This document shows positions 222 to 12,842 of a DNA stretch of 64,000 nt, piece after piece. A program made the position numbers and the translations under genes. A model generated the notes under the pieces. The model did not search any database. It was not told where the DNA came from and saw only the letters and a list, made by a program, of their open reading frames with translations. The stretch comes from SAR92 clade bacterium H231. GTDB taxonomy: Bacteria; Pseudomonadota; Gammaproteobacteria; Pseudomonadales; Porticoccaceae. Positions within the stretch are counted from its first letter, which is position 1; every line of letters begins with the position of its first letter. The stretch is taken from positions 248,001-312,000 of the forward strand of contig JAOALC010000004.1 of NCBI GenBank assembly GCA_025153775.1. Reading direction: 5' to 3'.

Positions 222-279
222 ATATAACGCCGAAAGCAGCGGGAGGCGAAGCCGTTCGACTGCCTTGACTTGTTATGGG
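222..279 (-). other. attC: attC recombination site (leftmost)
   Basis: The site starts with ATAACGCC and ends with GTTATGG, the inverted core pair that bounds an attC. Between them lie GC-rich imperfect arms and a central GGCGAAGCC element. It belongs to the toxin-antitoxin cassette on its right, since in this array the attC is on the left of each cassette. It is the last attC seen before the window's left edge. Confidence 0.75.
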
Positions 280-283
280 CTTT

Positions 284-313
284 ATACCAGTATTTGGTAT
301 TTATTGGTATAAA
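284..313 (+). promoter_or_regulatory. Probable operator/promoter of the ParDE-type cassette
   Basis: Three copies of a hexamer half-site occur in 27 bases: ATACCA at 284-289 and TGGTAT at 295-300 and 305-310. The first two form an inverted repeat, the last two a direct repeat. They sit 15-40 bases before the antitoxin ATG, where a ribbon-helix-helix antitoxin would repress its own promoter. TATAAA at 308-313 is a -10-like candidate, and a TTGACT at 265-270 inside the attC is a -35-like candidate for an alternative promoter. The assignment is inference from position and symmetry. Confidence 0.45.
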
Positions 314-325
314 AGAGGTGGCCCC

Positions 326-565
326 ATGCCTAAAAATACAAGTATTTCCCTTGGAGAGCACTTTGATAGCTTTATCGCCCAGCAAATTACAGAGGGTAGG
401 TACGCCTCTACTAGCGAGGTAGTACGTGCCGCCCTGAGGTTGCTTGAAGATAACGAGCAAAAAATAACCACACTTCGTAAGTTGCTTGAGGAAGGTGAAA
501 ATAGCGGTACAGCCGAATATAGCTATGAAGCGCTGATGAATGAAATTGACGATGAACTTGGTTAA
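326..565 (+). CDS. ParD-like ribbon-helix-helix antitoxin
   Basis: A 79-residue protein that would neutralise the toxin encoded directly downstream and repress the shared promoter. The N-terminal part (ISLGEHFDSFIAQQITEGRY then STSEVVRAALRLLE) is the ribbon-helix-helix pattern of the ParD/CC2985 antitoxin family; the acidic C-terminal half would wrap the toxin. The ATG at 326 is preferred over upstream starts because it has a GAGGTGG Shine-Dalgarno sequence and matches the family's N-terminus. The stop overlaps the next start (TAATG), implying translational coupling. The pair reads rightward, against nearly all other cassette genes. Confidence 0.88.
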   Translation: MPKNTSISLGEHFDSFIAQQITEGRYASTSEVVRAALRLLEDNEQKITTLRKLLEEGENSGTAEYSYEALMNEIDDELG

Positions 566-867
566 TGGGCACATTTACTTTAACCAATAAAGCCAAGGCT
601 GATTTGAAATCTGTAGCCACTTACACTCAGCGTAAGTGGGGTAAAAACCAGCGCGGGATTTACTTGAAGCAATTTGATGATGCTTTCCATTTGCTTGCTG
701 ATACTCCTGATGTCGGGATCAACTGTGATTTTATTAAATTAGGCTATCGTAAATTTCCAAATATCAGTCATGTGATTTTTTACCAAACGATAAATGATAC
801 TCAAATCGAAATTATCCGGATTTTACACAAGCGCATGGATGTAGAGAAAAACTTGAAGAACCCATAA
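565..867 (+). CDS. ParE/RelE-superfamily toxin
   Basis: A 100-residue partner of the upstream antitoxin. The pattern of an N-terminal helical pair (LTNKAKADLKSVATYTQRKW), a GYRKFP segment and a C-terminal I.IIRILHKRMD strand matches the ParE branch of the ParE/RelE toxin superfamily; ParE members inhibit DNA gyrase, but that target is not shown here. The start overlaps the antitoxin stop by one base (TAATG). The next attC begins at the stop codon, so operon and attC together fill one cassette. Such pairs in arrays are generally thought to stabilise the array against cassette loss. Confidence 0.88.
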   Translation: MGTFTLTNKAKADLKSVATYTQRKWGKNQRGIYLKQFDDAFHLLADTPDVGINCDFIKLGYRKFPNISHVIFYQTINDTQIEIIRILHKRMDVEKNLKNP

Positions 868-2862: not shown

Positions 2863-2933
2863 TCAGTTAACTCCAAAAGCAGCGGACCGAAAAAGCGCAG
2901 CTTTTTTGTGTCCGCTGGCTTGCCTTGTTAGCT
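2863..2933 (-). other. attC: attC recombination site
   Basis: Bounded by CAGTTAACTCC and GTTAGCT, with strong arms AGCGGAC / GTCCGCT and inner GAAAAAGC / GCTTTTTT. The right core contains the TAA stop of the Shedu-like gene. Confidence 0.83.
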
Positions 2934-3884
2934 GTCATGACCCACGATCCTTTTTGCGCGCTCTAACACGTGATCATAAGTCATGATTGTTAGATTGTGA
3001 TAGCCAGAGTTTAAAATTCTAAAGGCCTCTATTTGCTTATCATTCCAATCATTGGAGCGGCCAAAAATAAGAATGCACCGCGGCTTGATTGTCTTGACTC
3101 CATCAACTCTCTCTAGAAACTTTATGCTATTGGCTTCTCTCTCAACATCAAAGATATATGATGATGCCTGGATTACAGCTTTGATTAAGTCTGTAGATGG
3201 CACGTAATTACCGTGATCTATTGTTTTAGCCCAGAAAGTCATGCCTCCTTCTGGGCGCTTTATTTCTATAATGTCTAGGAATCCATCGTATGCTTCCATT
3301 AAAAAATCAGTGATATTTTGCGTATCAATAGATCTCTCGTCGAGGATACGAACAAAGTCACTCCCTAGAACCCAGCTATTTTTCTCAAACCAAGCCTGCC
3401 AGTTTGATTCTACTAGGTCATTATTTAGCATTGAGCTAAATTCAGTTATGGCTTTTACACGCTTAGCGTGTAAAAGCCCAGCTTCAAGGGCTTCTGGAAT
3501 GACGTCATTCGATAGAACAAAATCTATTAATTGCTTTTTATCAGGAAGTGAAAAAAGAGCCTTTATTTGCTCCGCATTGGACTTTTCGAATGGTCGATCT
3601 AAGGGGATAAATGCCTTAACACCCTCTTTAAAAGGCTCGTAATTGTTTTGTAGGAACTGGATAAGATTAACAAACTCTTCATTGTCGAAGGTGAGCTCAC
3701 TCTTAGGAGTTAATGTTTCAGGCTCTTCTGTCTCATCCCAATCTTTAGGCTTCTTATATCTCCCTACCTTAAGAGTAACTTCGTCAGCTCTTGTGTTGTG
3801 AGGTATTTTCCAGAATGCCGCACGAGTTATGACCTGCGGCCTGTTCCGCAGGACTGTAAACAATTTATCTTTGACTCTAGACAT
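2928..3884 (-). CDS. Shedu-like (DUF4263) anti-phage nuclease
   Basis: A 318-residue protein whose C-terminal half matches the Shedu immune nuclease SduA (PF14082). Visible features are ESNWQAWFEKNSWVLG near 159-174, then a PD-(D/E)xK-type core with D193 (TDFL) and E207-I-K209 in the DGFLDIIEIKRPEGG segment, a QASSYIF helix, and the end motif CILIFGRSNDW ... FRILNSGYHNLTIMTYDHV. Shedu proteins are single-gene defence nucleases; residues 1-130 here are a less conserved N-terminal region of the sort that varies between Shedu types. All expected catalytic residues are present, so it looks intact. It occupies one cassette, stop inside its attC. Confidence 0.85.
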   Translation of the reverse strand: MSRVKDKLFTVLRNRPQVITRAAFWKIPHNTRADEVTLKVGRYKKPKDWDETEEPETLTPKSELTFDNEEFVNLIQFLQNNYEPFKEGVKAFIPLDRPFEKSNAEQIKALFSLPDKKQLIDFVLSNDVIPEALEAGLLHAKRVKAITEFSSMLNNDLVESNWQAWFEKNSWVLGSDFVRILDERSIDTQNITDFLMEAYDGFLDIIEIKRPEGGMTFWAKTIDHGNYVPSTDLIKAVIQASSYIFDVEREANSIKFLERVDGVKTIKPRCILIFGRSNDWNDKQIEAFRILNSGYHNLTIMTYDHVLERAKRIVGHDS

Positions 3885-4449: not shown

Positions 4450-4815
4450 TCATGTAAGTTCCCAATCTTTTTCTATTTTGGCGACTTCATCTGATGCCCA
4501 TTGTTTCTTTAGGTTCTCGCCTCGGCCCCCGTCAGGAGGAACATGGATTGTTCTTTGGGCCTCAAATTTTTCGACTATCTTTTGTTGCATGTATGGCTTC
4601 ATTGCTGCGTAGGTGGAGGTGTTCCCAAAGTTTTCATTTTCCCACTCAAAAGCATCAATTTCGGATCTCCATTTCTCAATGAGCGATTTTCGATACTCAA
4701 ATTTAGACCTGCGCTTTTCAATTGCCCAATGCACCCATGGCGCAATCAAGCTCCCAACAACTCCGCCAATCAATCCTAATAGTGCTGGTGTGAACCAACT
4801 CAAATCATACTCCAA
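4450..4815 (-). CDS. Unrecognised small protein with one N-terminal membrane segment
   Basis: A 121-residue protein without a recognised family. Residues 8-30 (FTPALLGLIGGVVGSLIAPWV) are a glycine-rich transmembrane segment, followed by a basic, charged helical region (EKRRSKFEYRKSLIEKWRSEID). The start appears to be TTG at 4815, since an in-frame TAA lies two codons upstream and no ATG precedes the membrane segment. The general plan (one N-terminal helix, basic KRR..YRK boundary, soluble tail) resembles the product of the gene ending at 1590. Confidence 0.65.
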   Translation of the reverse strand: MEYDLSWFTPALLGLIGGVVGSLIAPWVHWAIEKRRSKFEYRKSLIEKWRSEIDAFEWENENFGNTSTYAAMKPYMQQKIVEKFEAQRTIHVPPDGGRGENLKKQWASDEVAKIEKDWELT

Positions 4816-4825
4816 TGGTTAAACA

Positions 4826-4914
4826 CGCATAACGCCCGCATTTGGGGCCGTAGTAAAGCGCAGCGAAACGAAGGTCCCAGCCCCGCAGGGGCGAACAACA
4901 TGCGCTTGTTAGCT
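4826..4914 (-). other. attC: attC recombination site
   Basis: Bounded by CATAACGCC and GTTAGCT. Outer arms GCCCGCAT / CATGCGC and inner GGGGCC-type arms with GCGCAGCGAAACG. About 88 bases; belongs to the TIR cassette. Confidence 0.82.
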
Positions 4915-4920
4915 GATTTT

Positions 4921-5811
4921 TCAAATGGAATAGCCCGCACTACGAAGTTCTGTATCCAGCTCGTCTTTCCAGGTACCGGCCGCATCCATTGATACATAAA
5001 CAACTCCACTAATGTCATTTGGTGTTTCAACGCTACCCTTAACCAAAGCTGCGACACGCTGGCGCGAAAGCTTTGCTATCAAATAGCCGTGTTCAAACAC
5101 TACGTTTTGCCTAGCCCTCCACTTGTAACTTAATGAGTCTCTCTTTGCTCCTACATCACATTCCGTATAAAGAACAATCCCAAAGCCAACATTACTGTAG
5201 TGATCAATTTTCTCTATAATGGTTCTTCCACCATTGGCTTGTAAGTGAAGGATAATTGGTTCTAGGCCTTTTGATTCTACATAAGCCTTAACGTCATTTT
5301 TGGCGTGCTCATCATGGCCATGAACGATAAAGACCTGATTCTTATTAAATTGCTCGCCAGCCTCTGCAGGTTTGTTTTCAAATGCAAATCCTGCATCAGC
5401 CTCAGGGACTACAGGGGTTTTCCTAGAGGCTAAGAGCTTACGTAAATCAGCTCTTTTGACAGCCCAATGGGTGCGGTGAAATTCAAAACTGTCGATGCCA
5501 AGCTCTAATGTTAAATCTACGATTTCTTGAGGTGTAAGCACCTCAACATCAGCATTTCTTTCGAATCTAATACGGTAATCATAATTTGATCTAGTTATAT
5601 TTGTGATTGTCGCGACAAAGGCGCCATCTTCATATTGCTCTTGCATCAATAAGGCAGGAAACCCTTTAATCTCTCCAACATTTTCAGCACTCAGATTTCT
5701 AAACCTCATCTGTGTTTCTGAGTCGGTATATTCAAGAAATCTTGAAGCTGAAACCGTGATTTCATTCTCTGGGTCATTTGGACCAACGTATCCAATTATC
5801 AGGTTATACAT
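4921..5811 (-). CDS. TIR-domain protein of the CAP12/Pycsar-type TIR family, candidate anti-phage NADase
   Basis: A 296-residue protein. Residues about 158-296 fit the TIR-like family PF10137 (CAP12/Pycsar effector TIR, earlier called predicted nucleotide-binding TIR-like): NQVFIVHGHDEHAKNDV opens the domain, IVLYTECDVGA is a central strand, and RARQNVVFEHGYLIAKL holds the likely catalytic E240. TIR domains with this glutamate typically cleave NAD+ on infection. The N-terminal 130 residues, including ELGIDSFEFHRTHWAVK near 103-119, are a probable sensor or regulatory part that I cannot name. No cyclase or other partner is in the cassette, so it may act alone. The ATG at 5811 has an AGGAT Shine-Dalgarno sequence; a TTG one codon earlier is less likely. 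Confidence 0.85.
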   Translation of the reverse strand: MYNLIIGYVGPNDPENEITVSASRFLEYTDSETQMRFRNLSAENVGEIKGFPALLMQEQYEDGAFVATITNITRSNYDYRIRFERNADVEVLTPQEIVDLTLELGIDSFEFHRTHWAVKRADLRKLLASRKTPVVPEADAGFAFENKPAEAGEQFNKNQVFIVHGHDEHAKNDVKAYVESKGLEPIILHLQANGGRTIIEKIDHYSNVGFGIVLYTECDVGAKRDSLSYKWRARQNVVFEHGYLIAKLSRQRVAALVKGSVETPNDISGVVYVSMDAAGTWKDELDTELRSAGYSI

Positions 5812-5823
5812 CAACTATCCTAT

Positions 5824-5889
5824 TCAGCTAACGCTTGCTTGTGGGGCGAAATGCGCAGTATTTTGTCCCACACCAAGACCTTATTAGGT
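5824..5889 (-). other. attC: attC recombination site with imperfect right core
   Basis: Left core GCTAACGC, right core ATTAGGT (first base differs from the usual G). Arms TTGCTTGTGGG / CCCACACCAAG are strong. The altered core may weaken recombination at this site. Confidence 0.7.
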
Positions 5890-5897
5890 GAATTGGG

Positions 5898-6056
5898 ATG
5901 AATGACAAAAAATGTGATAACCCTGCTGACTGGTTTATGCTGATTGTGGCCATTTTCATTGCGTGGCTGCCTGCAATTGTTGGAGAGCTAAATAAAGACC
6001 AGAAAGTGAAACAGCAAACCCCCACAGCCATTTCCAGTGAGCGAGATAGAAAGTGA
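5898..6056 (+). CDS. Small membrane protein (52 aa) in rightward orientation
   Basis: A short open frame too small for many gene callers. It begins MNDKKCDNPADW, runs through a single hydrophobic segment (FMLIVAIFIAWLPAIVG, residues 13-29) and ends in a charged tail. The TTGGG before the ATG is only a weak ribosome site. It starts nine bases from an attC core and fills the left half of a cassette otherwise empty of long genes. Clear membrane helix with charged flanks supports a real protein; the family is unknown. Confidence 0.5.
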   Translation: MNDKKCDNPADWFMLIVAIFIAWLPAIVGELNKDQKVKQQTPTAISSERDRK

Positions 6057-6090
6057 CGAATCTTCTAACAACCTCTGCCGTCCAATGCCG

Positions 6091-6186
6091 CTAAACATCG
6101 CCGCCGATAATGTGCATGCTGGAATCTGGCGTGTTTTCGTATGGGACCCATTCGCCTTCGTACCATTTGCGGATTTTCTCCCACAT
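6091..6186 (-). CDS. Very small conserved-looking protein (31 aa)
   Basis: A leftward open frame beginning MWEKIRKWYEGEWVPYENTP and ending after IIGGDV. It is Trp/Tyr/Glu-rich and its start lies 12 bases from the cassette's 5' boundary (GTTAGGTGAATAAACTATG), the usual position of cassette genes in this array. It converges with the 52-residue frame on the other strand, and both seem to share one cassette. It could be the surviving start of a longer gene. No function inferred. Confidence 0.4.
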   Translation of the reverse strand: MWEKIRKWYEGEWVPYENTPDSSMHIIGGDV

Positions 6187-6195
6187 AGTTTATTC

Positions 6196-6260
6196 ACCTA
6201 ACGCCCAAAGCAGCGGCGCGCGTTAGCGGGCAGCAATCAGGGCCGGACCTGCGCAACTTT
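6196..6260 (-). other. attC: Degenerate or truncated attC site
   Basis: A good left core (CACCTAACGCCC) and the start of GC-rich arms (AAAGCAGCGGCGCGCGTTAGCGGGC) are present, but no right core GTTRRRY is found at a normal distance. A GTTAGCG at 6222-6228 is too close, and GTTATGT at 6461 too far. The site seems interrupted or partly deleted. Confidence 0.5.
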
Positions 6261-6489
6261 TTGATTTGTATGAAAATGGCTAACCGGAATACGTATTTTG
6301 AAATCTTAGAGGGTTCACTTTGGCATTAAAAAAGTCATTTTAATAAGTCTGCCACCTCATTAGGTCCGCTTTTCTTAGCACAGCATTTTACACCGCAAAA
6401 CCGGTGTTCTAAGCAGAAAATCTGCCTCTATTTGAGCACATTCTTCTATCATATTAGTAAGTTATGTTGGCCCGACCCCGCTAACCCCG
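6261..6489. other. Non-coding part of a decayed cassette
   Basis: About 230 AT-rich bases without a credible gene on either strand. It ends with a duplicated CCCCGCTAA next to the DinB-fold gene's stop instead of a normal attC core. Read as the remains of an attC or ORF-less cassette after rearrangement. Confidence 0.4.
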
Positions 6490-6969
6490 CTAACCCAAAA
6501 AATTTGTAACAACGTCTTTTTCAGGAGCTATAGCGTTTTGATGCATCAGTACCCCAACATTTCCTCGATGGTATGTTCCATGGTTTACAACATGAAATAT
6601 TATTTCACTTTTGGACATGCAGCCTTCTTCACCATTAGTAAATTGAAATCTGACGTTATCGCTTAACTCTGGCTCAGTGATATTATTCGCATAGTCAATA
6701 TACCACTGGTCTACAATTTTTACAGACTCGTACAGCTCGCCCAATGCTGGAAACGAAGTTGTATTTGTCGCTGTGTATGAGTGTGCTACTCCCTTCAGAT
6801 GCGCCTTGAAAATACAATCTACAACGTGGGCATGATTAAGCGTGCCAATTATTGACTTAATATCTTCTACATTTTCAATTTCCGGGCTTGACATCAACTT
6901 GGAGAAAAGCCCTTCATTTGCCCAAGCCTTATACTCCGTCAACATTTTAATCATATCAATTGAGGACAT
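6490..6969 (-). CDS. DinB-family (DinB/YfiT fold) putative metal-dependent protein
   Basis: A 159-residue four-helix-bundle protein of the DinB/YfiT superfamily, which includes bacillithiol and mycothiol S-transferases and many unassigned metal-binding enzymes. The histidine triad is visible: H46/H48 in LNHAHVVD and H130 and H134 in HVVNHGTYHRGNV. The opening (MLTEYKAWANEGLFSKL) fits the first helix. A good AAGGAA Shine-Dalgarno sequence precedes the ATG, so translation need not depend on the neighbouring cassette. The substrate is unknown; this is not the DNA polymerase DinB. Confidence 0.85.
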   Translation of the reverse strand: MSSIDMIKMLTEYKAWANEGLFSKLMSSPEIENVEDIKSIIGTLNHAHVVDCIFKAHLKGVAHSYTATNTTSFPALGELYESVKIVDQWYIDYANNITEPELSDNVRFQFTNGEEGCMSKSEIIFHVVNHGTYHRGNVGVLMHQNAIAPEKDVVTNFLG

Positions 6970-6990
6970 AGATTTTTCCTTCAGTATTTA

Positions 6991-7108
6991 CGCATAACGC
7001 CTTGCTCAACGGCACATGCTGCGGAGAGCGTTTTTGTGTAGGATGGAGCGAAGCGATACACAAAAACGAGCGTAGCAGTATGTGTCCGCGTGCAGCAATT
7101 TGTTAGGC
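6991..7108 (-). other. attC: Long attC recombination site
   Basis: Bounded by GCATAACGCC and GTTAGGC, about 117 bases, the longest of the array. Nested arms CACATGCTGC / GCAGTATGTG and GTTTTTGTGTA / TACACAAAAAC with GGAGCGAAGCGA in the centre. The right core includes the stop of the following gene. Confidence 0.87.
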
Positions 7109-7759
7109 ATTGCCTGCTCTAGCCTCATTCTTAGAAATTATTTCATTTAACTTTACGGCTGCCAATTCTTGCGCTATTGGATTTAGATGGTTTAGAGCTT
7201 GCCCCACTTTTCCAGTAGCCTCGTCAGCAGACAATACTTCTCCTGTTTCAACTAGGTGATCGAGCCACGGCATTAAAATAGAAAGCTCTAACATTGTACT
7301 TGCCGCCAAATCAACCGTTGATATGTTCGATTTAGCTATATTATCAGGTAATTTCTCCGAACTACCCATTTCATGCACGGCTTCGAGGCGATCTTTAACC
7401 AACTCGTGCAATGACATTATTTTTTGATAACTATACATTACTTGATGGAGAAGGTCTGAAGGGAAAGCGTGTAGGCTAGACAGCTTTTCCGTGTAGACTC
7501 TGTAATATAAATCTTGATCTATCTTGACTATAGGGTTTTGGTAAATCATTGATGCTATAACACCGCAGCTCTGTAGAGACATACCTGCCTCAACAGACAA
7601 TATTGCTGCTAAGCCTTTAATTTCGTTATTTTTTTCATCTTCTTTTTGTTTCTTGACTGCATTAATTTGGGTGCGAGTTGTGAGCACAACAATACTTGCG
7701 CCCATAAGCGCGATGAATGCAGATATTATTGTTTGAAACTCTTTGATGAACTCAATCAT
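7103..7759 (-). CDS. Unrecognised protein with N-terminal membrane segment and coiled region
   Basis: A 218-residue protein I cannot place in a family. Residues about 8-28 (FQTIISAFIALMGASIVVLTT) form a membrane helix, followed by a charged, probably coiled-coil linker (INAVKKQKEDEKNNEIKGL) and a long helical domain with several Met/Ser-rich stretches. The arrangement of an N-terminal anchor, coiled linker and helical soluble domain is again that of the other small membrane proteins in this array. The stop is inside its own attC and the ATG is about 12 bases inside the 5' boundary. Confidence 0.7.
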   Translation of the reverse strand: MIEFIKEFQTIISAFIALMGASIVVLTTRTQINAVKKQKEDEKNNEIKGLAAILSVEAGMSLQSCGVIASMIYQNPIVKIDQDLYYRVYTEKLSSLHAFPSDLLHQVMYSYQKIMSLHELVKDRLEAVHEMGSSEKLPDNIAKSNISTVDLAASTMLELSILMPWLDHLVETGEVLSADEATGKVGQALNHLNPIAQELAAVKLNEIISKNEARAGNA

Positions 7760-12079: not shown

Positions 12080-12328
12080 CTAAATATCCAACAACCGCCC
12101 AATCTGGGCCGCTGTGAATGGCCAGCCCTTCTCCTGGCCATTAGCCAATACAACTGGAATGCGAATGCCGTATTTTTGCTGTAACTCGGCATCGGTGTGA
12201 ATATCCACCTCCATAAGCGTTAGCCCCCTTTCCGACATTAGCGGATAGAGTAGTGCCTTAGCCTGCTCACAGAGATGGCAATTAGGGCCGGTGTAGATGA
12301 TCAACTGGTTCGCTGACGGCTTATGCAT
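12080..12328 (-). CDS. Glutaredoxin-like thiol-disulfide protein (DUF836)
   Basis: An 82-residue protein of the glutaredoxin-like DUF836 family. The redox motif is C17-H-L-C20 in IYTGPNCHLCEQAKALL, with the cis-proline segment GIRIPVVLANG and the Trp-containing end GWPFTAAQIGRLL. The start overlaps the end of the YoeB toxin gene by eight bases, so the three genes are one transcript, an unusual partner for a toxin-antitoxin pair. Confidence 0.85.
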   Translation of the reverse strand: MHKPSANQLIIYTGPNCHLCEQAKALLYPLMSERGLTLMEVDIHTDAELQQKYGIRIPVVLANGQEKGWPFTAAQIGRLLDI

Positions 12329-12581
12329 AATGAGTCCATAGTCTTAATACTTTTACCGCCTGCTGGGCTTCTAACACCTGATAGACCAGGCGGTGTTGAA
12401 TGTTGATGCGCCGGGAGTAGGCTCCCGCCAGGTCACCTACAAGCTTTTCGTAAGGTGGTGGATTTTGATAGGGATTGCTCTGCAAAATCTCGAGCAACTG
12501 GCTGGCCTTGGACTTGAGGCCCGCCGCTGCCAGTTTTTTCGCGTCTTTTTGTGCCTGCCTAGTGAAGTGCAGCTGCCACAT
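12321..12581 (-). CDS. yoeB: YoeB-type mRNA interferase toxin
   Basis: An 86-residue toxin that would cleave mRNA at the ribosome. The WQLHFTRQAQKDAKKL opening, the NPPPYEKLVGDLAGAYSRRI segment, the INIQHRLVYQV strand and the C-terminal RLWTHYA are diagnostic of the YoeB/Txe family; the catalytic Glu (in YEKL or the QHRLVY region), Arg and C-terminal His-Tyr are present. The ATG overlaps the antitoxin stop (TAATG), giving coupled translation. Confidence 0.92.
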   Translation of the reverse strand: MWQLHFTRQAQKDAKKLAAAGLKSKASQLLEILQSNPYQNPPPYEKLVGDLAGAYSRRINIQHRLVYQVLEAQQAVKVLRLWTHYA

Positions 12582-12823
12582 TACCAATCCAGTTCCTTTT
12601 TGGTGTCTTTAAGGTCAGTTTCCATGCCCTCGCGAATAGATTCTCGCATACCTGGAATTGCCAATAGGAACAAGGTTTCGTTGATTGCGCTCCAGTCCTC
12701 TTCTGAAAGGAGCACTGCGTTGCTTCTTTTGCCTTTGATAATAATCGGCTGATGGGTATTCGCGGTCTCATCAATCAGCTTGTAGAGATTGGTTCTGGCT
12801 TCGGTGACATTGTATGTGGTCAT
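12581..12823 (-). CDS. yefM: YefM/Phd-family antitoxin
   Basis: An 80-residue antitoxin and likely autorepressor. It begins TTYNVTEARTNLYKLIDE, the conserved N-terminus of YefM, followed by HQPIIIKGKRSNAVLLSEEDW and an acidic toxin-binding tail. The ATG at 12,823 is chosen because of a GGAGG Shine-Dalgarno sequence and family alignment; an upstream in-frame start adds only six residues. It is transcribed from a palindromic promoter just upstream. Confidence 0.92.
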   Translation of the reverse strand: MTTYNVTEARTNLYKLIDETANTHQPIIIKGKRSNAVLLSEEDWSAINETLFLLAIPGMRESIREGMETDLKDTKKELDW

Positions 12824-12842
12824 AGCTACCTCCAAGAACAAA

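Follow-up and report, generated by a model that had tools for sequence, protein, structure and literature searches.

A lone TIR-domain gene cassette of a SAR92-clade bacterium carries an N-terminal module shared among effectors and predicted to adopt a PUA-like fold

Single-gene defence by TIR or TIR-like proteins is already known from SpbK and Swarozyc. SpbK of B. subtilis combines in one protein an N-terminal part that docks the trigger and a TIR NADase, according to the available part of PMC12847820. Swarozyc, too, is encoded by one gene and joins a NADase to a separate auxiliary domain that acts as the sensor (PMC13174449, available in part). CBASS Cap12 (TIR-STING) carries a TIR domain of family PF10137, and TirC of Dictyostelium, a TIR protein of the PF10137 clade and a relative of TIR-STING, has potent NADase activity, as stated in the accessible portion of PMC13142454. 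Here we describe a gene of related make-up in a 64,000-nt stretch of SAR92 clade bacterium H231 (contig JAOALC010000004.1, positions 248,001 to 312,000; hereafter the window). The gene (4921..5811, minus strand) is the sole gene of an integron cassette and encodes a protein of 296 residues, consisting of an N-terminal module, the N-domain, and a PF10137 TIR domain with the same Glu motif as Cap12. The most valuable lead, which concerns more than this one cassette, is the N-domain, a module shared with other proteins.

The open reading frame (ORF) is real. It starts with an ATG at 5811, preceded at 6 nt by AGGA, and its stop ends at 4921; an alternative TTG start at 5814 would add one residue. 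According to Pfam and alignment data, residues 159–276 (4984..5337, minus strand) form a PF10137 TIR domain, a predicted NADase, with a score of 123.9 bits (E 4.3e-36; gathering cut-off 24.7). Glu240, encoded at 5092–5094, is the E of RARQNVVFEHG and aligned with the Glu of NVVFEFG in Cap12 (PDB 9lmq, E 2.1e-5), the sole solved structure matched by sequence at E ≤ 0.01. No second PF10137 protein was found in the genome. PADLOC assigned the C-terminal half (residues 148–296, 252.4 bits) to the candidate defence family PDC-S35, a name without a match in the literature searched. Five PDC-S35 models matched from residue 120 or later only, and the protein is not a member of PDC-S35 over its whole length.

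An earlier note on this DNA, made from the letters alone, had described a lone cassette for a TIR protein with a catalytic Glu and a separate, unnamed domain of about 130 residues. The observation of a lone TIR-domain cassette was confirmed, and the PF10137 search that the note had called for gave a score far above the cut-off. The N-terminal 130 residues matched no Pfam model at E ≤ 0.1, and the N-terminal part matched no PADLOC model at E ≤ 1 when the window protein and 11 relatives were scanned. The note had also placed the protein in a CAP12/Pycsar-type family, and membership of the CAP12 or Pycsar systems themselves found no support. For the NCBIfam Cap12 models (cut-off 450 bits), the scores were 28.5 and 24.9 bits, and the PADLOC PycTIR model scored 15.8 bits; we rejected both identities. 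A search for the SMODS cyclase (CD-NTase) yielded 0 matches in the genome, having matched 3 of 14 control genomes, two of them over the cut-off. The neighbouring genes scanned included neither a cyclase nor a Thoeris gene, in agreement with the note's claim that no partner lies nearby. Two class III cyclase-domain proteins are encoded elsewhere in the genome (C4:82720 and C1:305100). A STALD search for Thoeris ThsA had no match in the genome but was likewise silent in 14 of 14 control genomes.

The N-domain (residues 1–131; 5419..5811, minus strand) represents a conserved family. With residues 1–132 as the query, it was found in 10 of 398 genomes of a phylum sample, and an N-domain profile found it in 7 of 369 genomes of a class sample; the samples overlap in G000 and G019. 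From the 183 loci of a scan of named genomes, 80 were retained by means of an RTHWA pattern, of which 79 have an ORF and L102 has none. Typed by sequence pattern, with four ORFs reassigned by hand, these 79 N-domain ORFs carried FRG (32), TIR_2 (24), NDT-like (11), PF10137 (8) or SEFIR (1) effectors, the remaining three being unclear, broken or other. For PF10137, FRG, TIR_2 and SEFIR, representatives scored above the Pfam cut-offs. The NDT-like domains, which we take to be DrHyd, were assigned below the cut-off of 28.8 bits (L012, 16.1; L062, 21.9; no match for L008 and L013). The FRG fusion that was scanned is PADLOC PDC-S15, and the scanned TIR_2 fusion matched no PADLOC model. FRG lies in the ADP-ribosyltransferase (ART) superfamily, and TIR, DrHyd and such ARTs are described as NAD+-consuming in the part of PMC9503650 available. 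Judged by sequence, the N-domain is a module that also occurs with other effectors (TIR_2, SEFIR, FRG and deoxyribosyltransferase-like), whose predicted target is NAD+ or nucleotides. Among the matches listed, literature on FRG, on EVE/PUA with TIR or defence, and on PF10137, available in part, contained no description of an N-domain joined to an effector. The main text of PMC13092281 mentions neither TIR nor FRG, and PMC12111858, from its accessible part, concerns an unrelated ATPase-TOPRIM protein. One further ORF (L066:4998-6299) joins the N-domain to about 300 residues that matched nothing in Pfam or PADLOC, possibly a further effector type.

In a tree of 124 N-domains over 134 columns, 51 of 113 inner branches are open. 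By its starred branches, the PF10137 label must have been gained or lost at least three times, which indicates that effector and N-domain were separated or joined more than once. The window protein and L004 were placed apart from the Vibrio-type and sphingomonad-type groups; the window branch is long and its placement unsure. Nine positions were invariant in 69 aligned N-domains, namely R24, P52, E58, R113, T114, H115, W116, A117 and K119, and the window protein retains all nine. The RTHWA part of this set is biased by the search pattern, and R24, P52 and E58 are free of that bias. Proteins from searches that did not use the pattern mostly show the same motif; L016 has RSHWA.

Two AlphaFold models of the N-domain gave a compact barrel with a predicted local distance difference test (pLDDT) score of 94–95. 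The nearest solved folds were PUA-like base readers (EVE, YTH and ASCH), with modest scores and without support at the level of sequence. The structure prediction that the earlier note had proposed for this part suggests a PUA-like barrel as a candidate fold. Searches by other routes added no relative: Foldseek against BFVD gave nothing at E ≤ 0.001, PDB sequences yielded only two designed TPR proteins (E 0.18–0.35), and EVE (PF01878) had no match in Pfam scans of the window protein and of representative relatives. An ASCH search matched 5 times in 56 genomes, too rarely to be of use. According to the accessible parts of PMC7641849 and PMC7897488, EVE, YTH and SRA domains read modified bases. 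Because of this, modified nucleic acid is the most specific candidate for the cue that the PUA-like shape suggests.

Proteins with the same domain make-up as the window protein were found on two Vibrio plasmids, with identities of 48.7% (L002) and 44.5% (L003). In all three arrays, an attC-like site lies on each side of the lone gene. An AAA ATPase and HNH pair immediately precedes L002, and an Mrr-type restriction gene lies two genes after it. After L080 comes a Gabija-like pair made up of an OLD-like TOPRIM ATPase and a UvrD helicase. L113 adjoins genes for portal and terminase, and an integrase lies two ORFs beyond L114. The catalytic Glu is present in all 15 intact proteins examined, of which 14 are distinct. 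In L053 and L102, the N-domain and the TIR part are apparently in broken or separate frames. The window protein also matched 1198 plasmid records (617 Klebsiella, 419 Escherichia). Among these, a make-up with a different N-terminus joined to PF10137 was read in L005 (3596-4775) and L006 (5486-6672), each with a small overlapping gene before it.

The N-domain also occurs on viral contigs. Of 32 such loci, 12 encode fusions, one (L106) an N-domain alone (132 residues) and 19 (L115, L116, L118 and L120–L135) effector-less proteins of 208–259 residues that end in the N-domain. Several of the 19 are near-copies, and 18 of them (without L135) form 11 groups at 90%. A P-loop (AAA) ATPase motif occurs within the next two ORFs downstream in 16, an SNF2 helicase in 2 and the contig edge in 1. 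The two downstream ATPases scanned are PDC-S06, and the scanned downstream helicase matched HKD+Snf2 and PLD_Helicase models. Upstream, a partner of about 300 residues from one unnamed family was found in 17 of 18 loci besides the reference L128; in the remaining locus, L125, an ORF bearing that motif is seen. The genes upstream of the viral-contig loci resemble what we presume to be DUF2800/DUF2815-type phage replication genes. Several effector-less proteins have a Q-G-x-NTQIA-like stretch near the N-terminus. We considered a role of the stand-alone N-domain as a phage decoy and set it aside on the strength of the ATPase or helicase genes that follow and the recurrent upstream partner. Partner, N-domain protein and ATPase or helicase may possibly form a multi-gene defence module. 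Archaeal stand-alone EVE proteins are paired with SNF2-nuclease systems, according to the portion of PMC7641849 available, which is a parallel to the viral-contig N-domains and not proof.

The window gene lies in an integron cassette of about 999 nt (4833..5831, minus strand), bounded by the core sites GTTAGCT (5832–5826) and GTTATGC (4833–4827), which were read from the sequence. The ends follow from the presumed cleavage position within the core site. The earlier note's claim that the cassette carries the TIR gene alone held, and its extent of 4826–5811 is replaced by that given by the core sites. The attC of the TIR cassette (4827..4914, minus strand, approximate ends) was found by a script (4827–4911, TAACAAGC...GGGCGTTATGC), with a fold of the stretch as further evidence. 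The attC end of the preceding cassette (5825..5892, minus strand, approximate ends), with core GTTAGCT, forms the 5' boundary. It was read by eye, having been missed by the script, which overlooked other sites too. With attC core sites on both sides, one of them read by eye, the element is an integron cassette. The script gave nine minus-strand matches within the window interval 1.5–11.1 kb. A single weak plus-strand match and three others from the 20 kb on the left lack the TAACAA...GCGTTA form and are therefore attributed to chance. Three genes along the array lies a second defence gene, Shedu SduA (2928..3884, minus strand; PF14082 84.4 bits; PADLOC SduA 511.7 bits over residues 1–317). No integron integrase (TIGR02249) was matched in the genome (97.8% complete, 7 contigs), and the 14 control genomes were matched with none over the cut-off. 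The array thus looks like a cassette cluster without its own integrase, a conclusion to be read with the 0 of 14 controls over cut-off. Toxin-antitoxin pairs of ParDE and Phd/YoeB type stand at its two edges (275-867, plus strand, and 12321-12841, minus strand). Rfam gave nothing at E ≤ 1 in the first 13 kb of the window.

Computation yielded the domain composition, an intact catalytic Glu, a cassette with a single gene, an N-domain that different effectors share and a predicted fold; together, these probably describe a self-contained one-protein abortive-infection system of N-domain sensor and TIR NADase. A single-gene system with a built-in sensor, as the earlier note had suggested, is the best reading. 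In the proposed mechanism, residues ∼1–130 would be the sensor with a PUA-like (EVE/YTH-type) barrel, ∼132–158 a linker and 159–276 the PF10137 TIR NADase. In an uninfected cell, the N-domain would hold the TIR domains apart or inactive. Binding of the cue by the N-domain would release them to assemble, and the assembled TIR domains would hydrolyse NAD+ and stop the infected cell. The NADase activity, the autoinhibition and its release, and the defence role are expected rather than observed. The cue is the least certain part: our most specific guess, prompted by the modelled fold, is a modified base or another form of nucleic acid, and a phage protein is the main alternative. More tentatively, and we consider it possible at best, the N-domain may found a new family of PUA-like base readers plugged into interchangeable NAD+-destroying effectors, giving modification-dependent immunity that drains NAD+ instead of cutting phage DNA.

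Several observations weigh against a defence role for this copy or a base-reading role for its N-domain. Foldseek against the PDB gave nothing at E ≤ 0.001 (best 0.073 and 0.0092), and the list for the first model mixed PUA-like entries with unrelated ones. VIA Z values were below 8, a range that the tool calls common, and the rows were mostly YTH, one family. The two AlphaFold models have most of their alignment rows in common. Set against a profile of 30 EVE proteins in hhalign, the N-domain profile reached 14.0, and the best of 40 column shuffles reached 21.0. The exchange of effectors could mean that the N-domain is an oligomerisation or localisation part only. In a PADLOC scan of 110 neighbours of 55 loci (those among L025–L102 that had an ORF and 9 kb or more) and of 99 control ORFs, controls also matched PADLOC families (45, vs 55 for neighbours); since families and not distinct proteins are counted, no enrichment is shown. 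Of the 69 N-domains, that of the window protein diverges most (mean identity 0.29) and departs from the consensus W, F and G at positions 13, 55 and 67; the L026 relative comes nearer to the consensus. The sole promoter-like site in 4800–7110 falls within the gene, and there are fewer sites than in shuffles. With no promoter-like site outside the gene in this stretch, so divergent a copy may be silent or decaying. A passive cargo cassette or a stabilising toxin without a defence role, silent and drifting in the window, would fit these two features, the toxin-antitoxin pairs at both array edges and the failure to find an integrase in the genome. We nevertheless judge it unlikely: the reading frame, Glu240 and the nine invariant residues are all intact, the cassette has no second gene, and the module is also carried by prophage-like elements and by plasmids, close to defence genes.

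Within the preferred reading of a one-protein sensor and NADase, it is conceivable, though we would not favour it, that the N-domain recognizes a structural protein of the phage, for example the portal, and that its PUA-like shape is incidental. In SpbK and Swarozyc, both TIR or TIR-like NADases encoded by one gene, a domain other than TIR mediates activation by portal proteins (PMC12847820 and PMC13174449, from the parts available), and the fold scores for the N-domain are modest. On the other hand, the invariant positions, several of them charged or aromatic, look to us more like a ligand site than like a fast-evolving protein-recognition face, with the caveat that part of the invariant motif doubled as the search pattern. 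Alternatively, the N-domain could bind a small nucleotide signal made elsewhere, the protein acting in trans as the effector of a cyclase. The Pfam name links PF10137 to CAP12 and Pycsar effectors, and the two class III cyclase-domain proteins of the genome could be invoked as sources. These are, however, non-adjacent and have no established defence membership, the SMODS search was negative in this genome, and the gene stands singly between attC-like sites in the window, L002 and L003 arrays. Overall, this possibility appears quite improbable.

The one-protein sensor and NADase proposed here differs from each of the described systems. The trigger of SpbK is the portal YonE, and the likeness to it is drawn from its description (PMC12847820, in its available part). 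Swarozyc uses a TIR-like DUF4062 domain, a C-terminal helix-turn-helix/winged auxiliary domain and a portal trigger, according to the accessible part of PMC13174449. Cap12 belongs with a cyclase of the type that was not found in this genome, and the window protein falls far short of its models' cut-off. In the modification-dependent EVE-HNH endonucleases such as VcaM4I, the effector is a nuclease, whereas here it is a predicted NADase, and profile comparison gave no sign of similarity to EVE sequences. If modified bases are indeed read, modification-dependent immunity would extend from nucleases to abortive NAD+ depletion. The N-domain would also connect the separately listed PADLOC candidates PDC-S35 and PDC-S15 and several TIR proteins. 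Since it is small, predicted with high confidence and common to many proteins, its binding and structure are directly testable. The TIR half is already PDC-S35, to which the C-terminal half of the window protein is a strong match, and the best stretches of those models stop short of residues 1–119. What is new is the N-terminal stretch of ∼130 residues, by sequence a widespread module on several different effectors and, by modelling, one with a predicted PUA-like fold.
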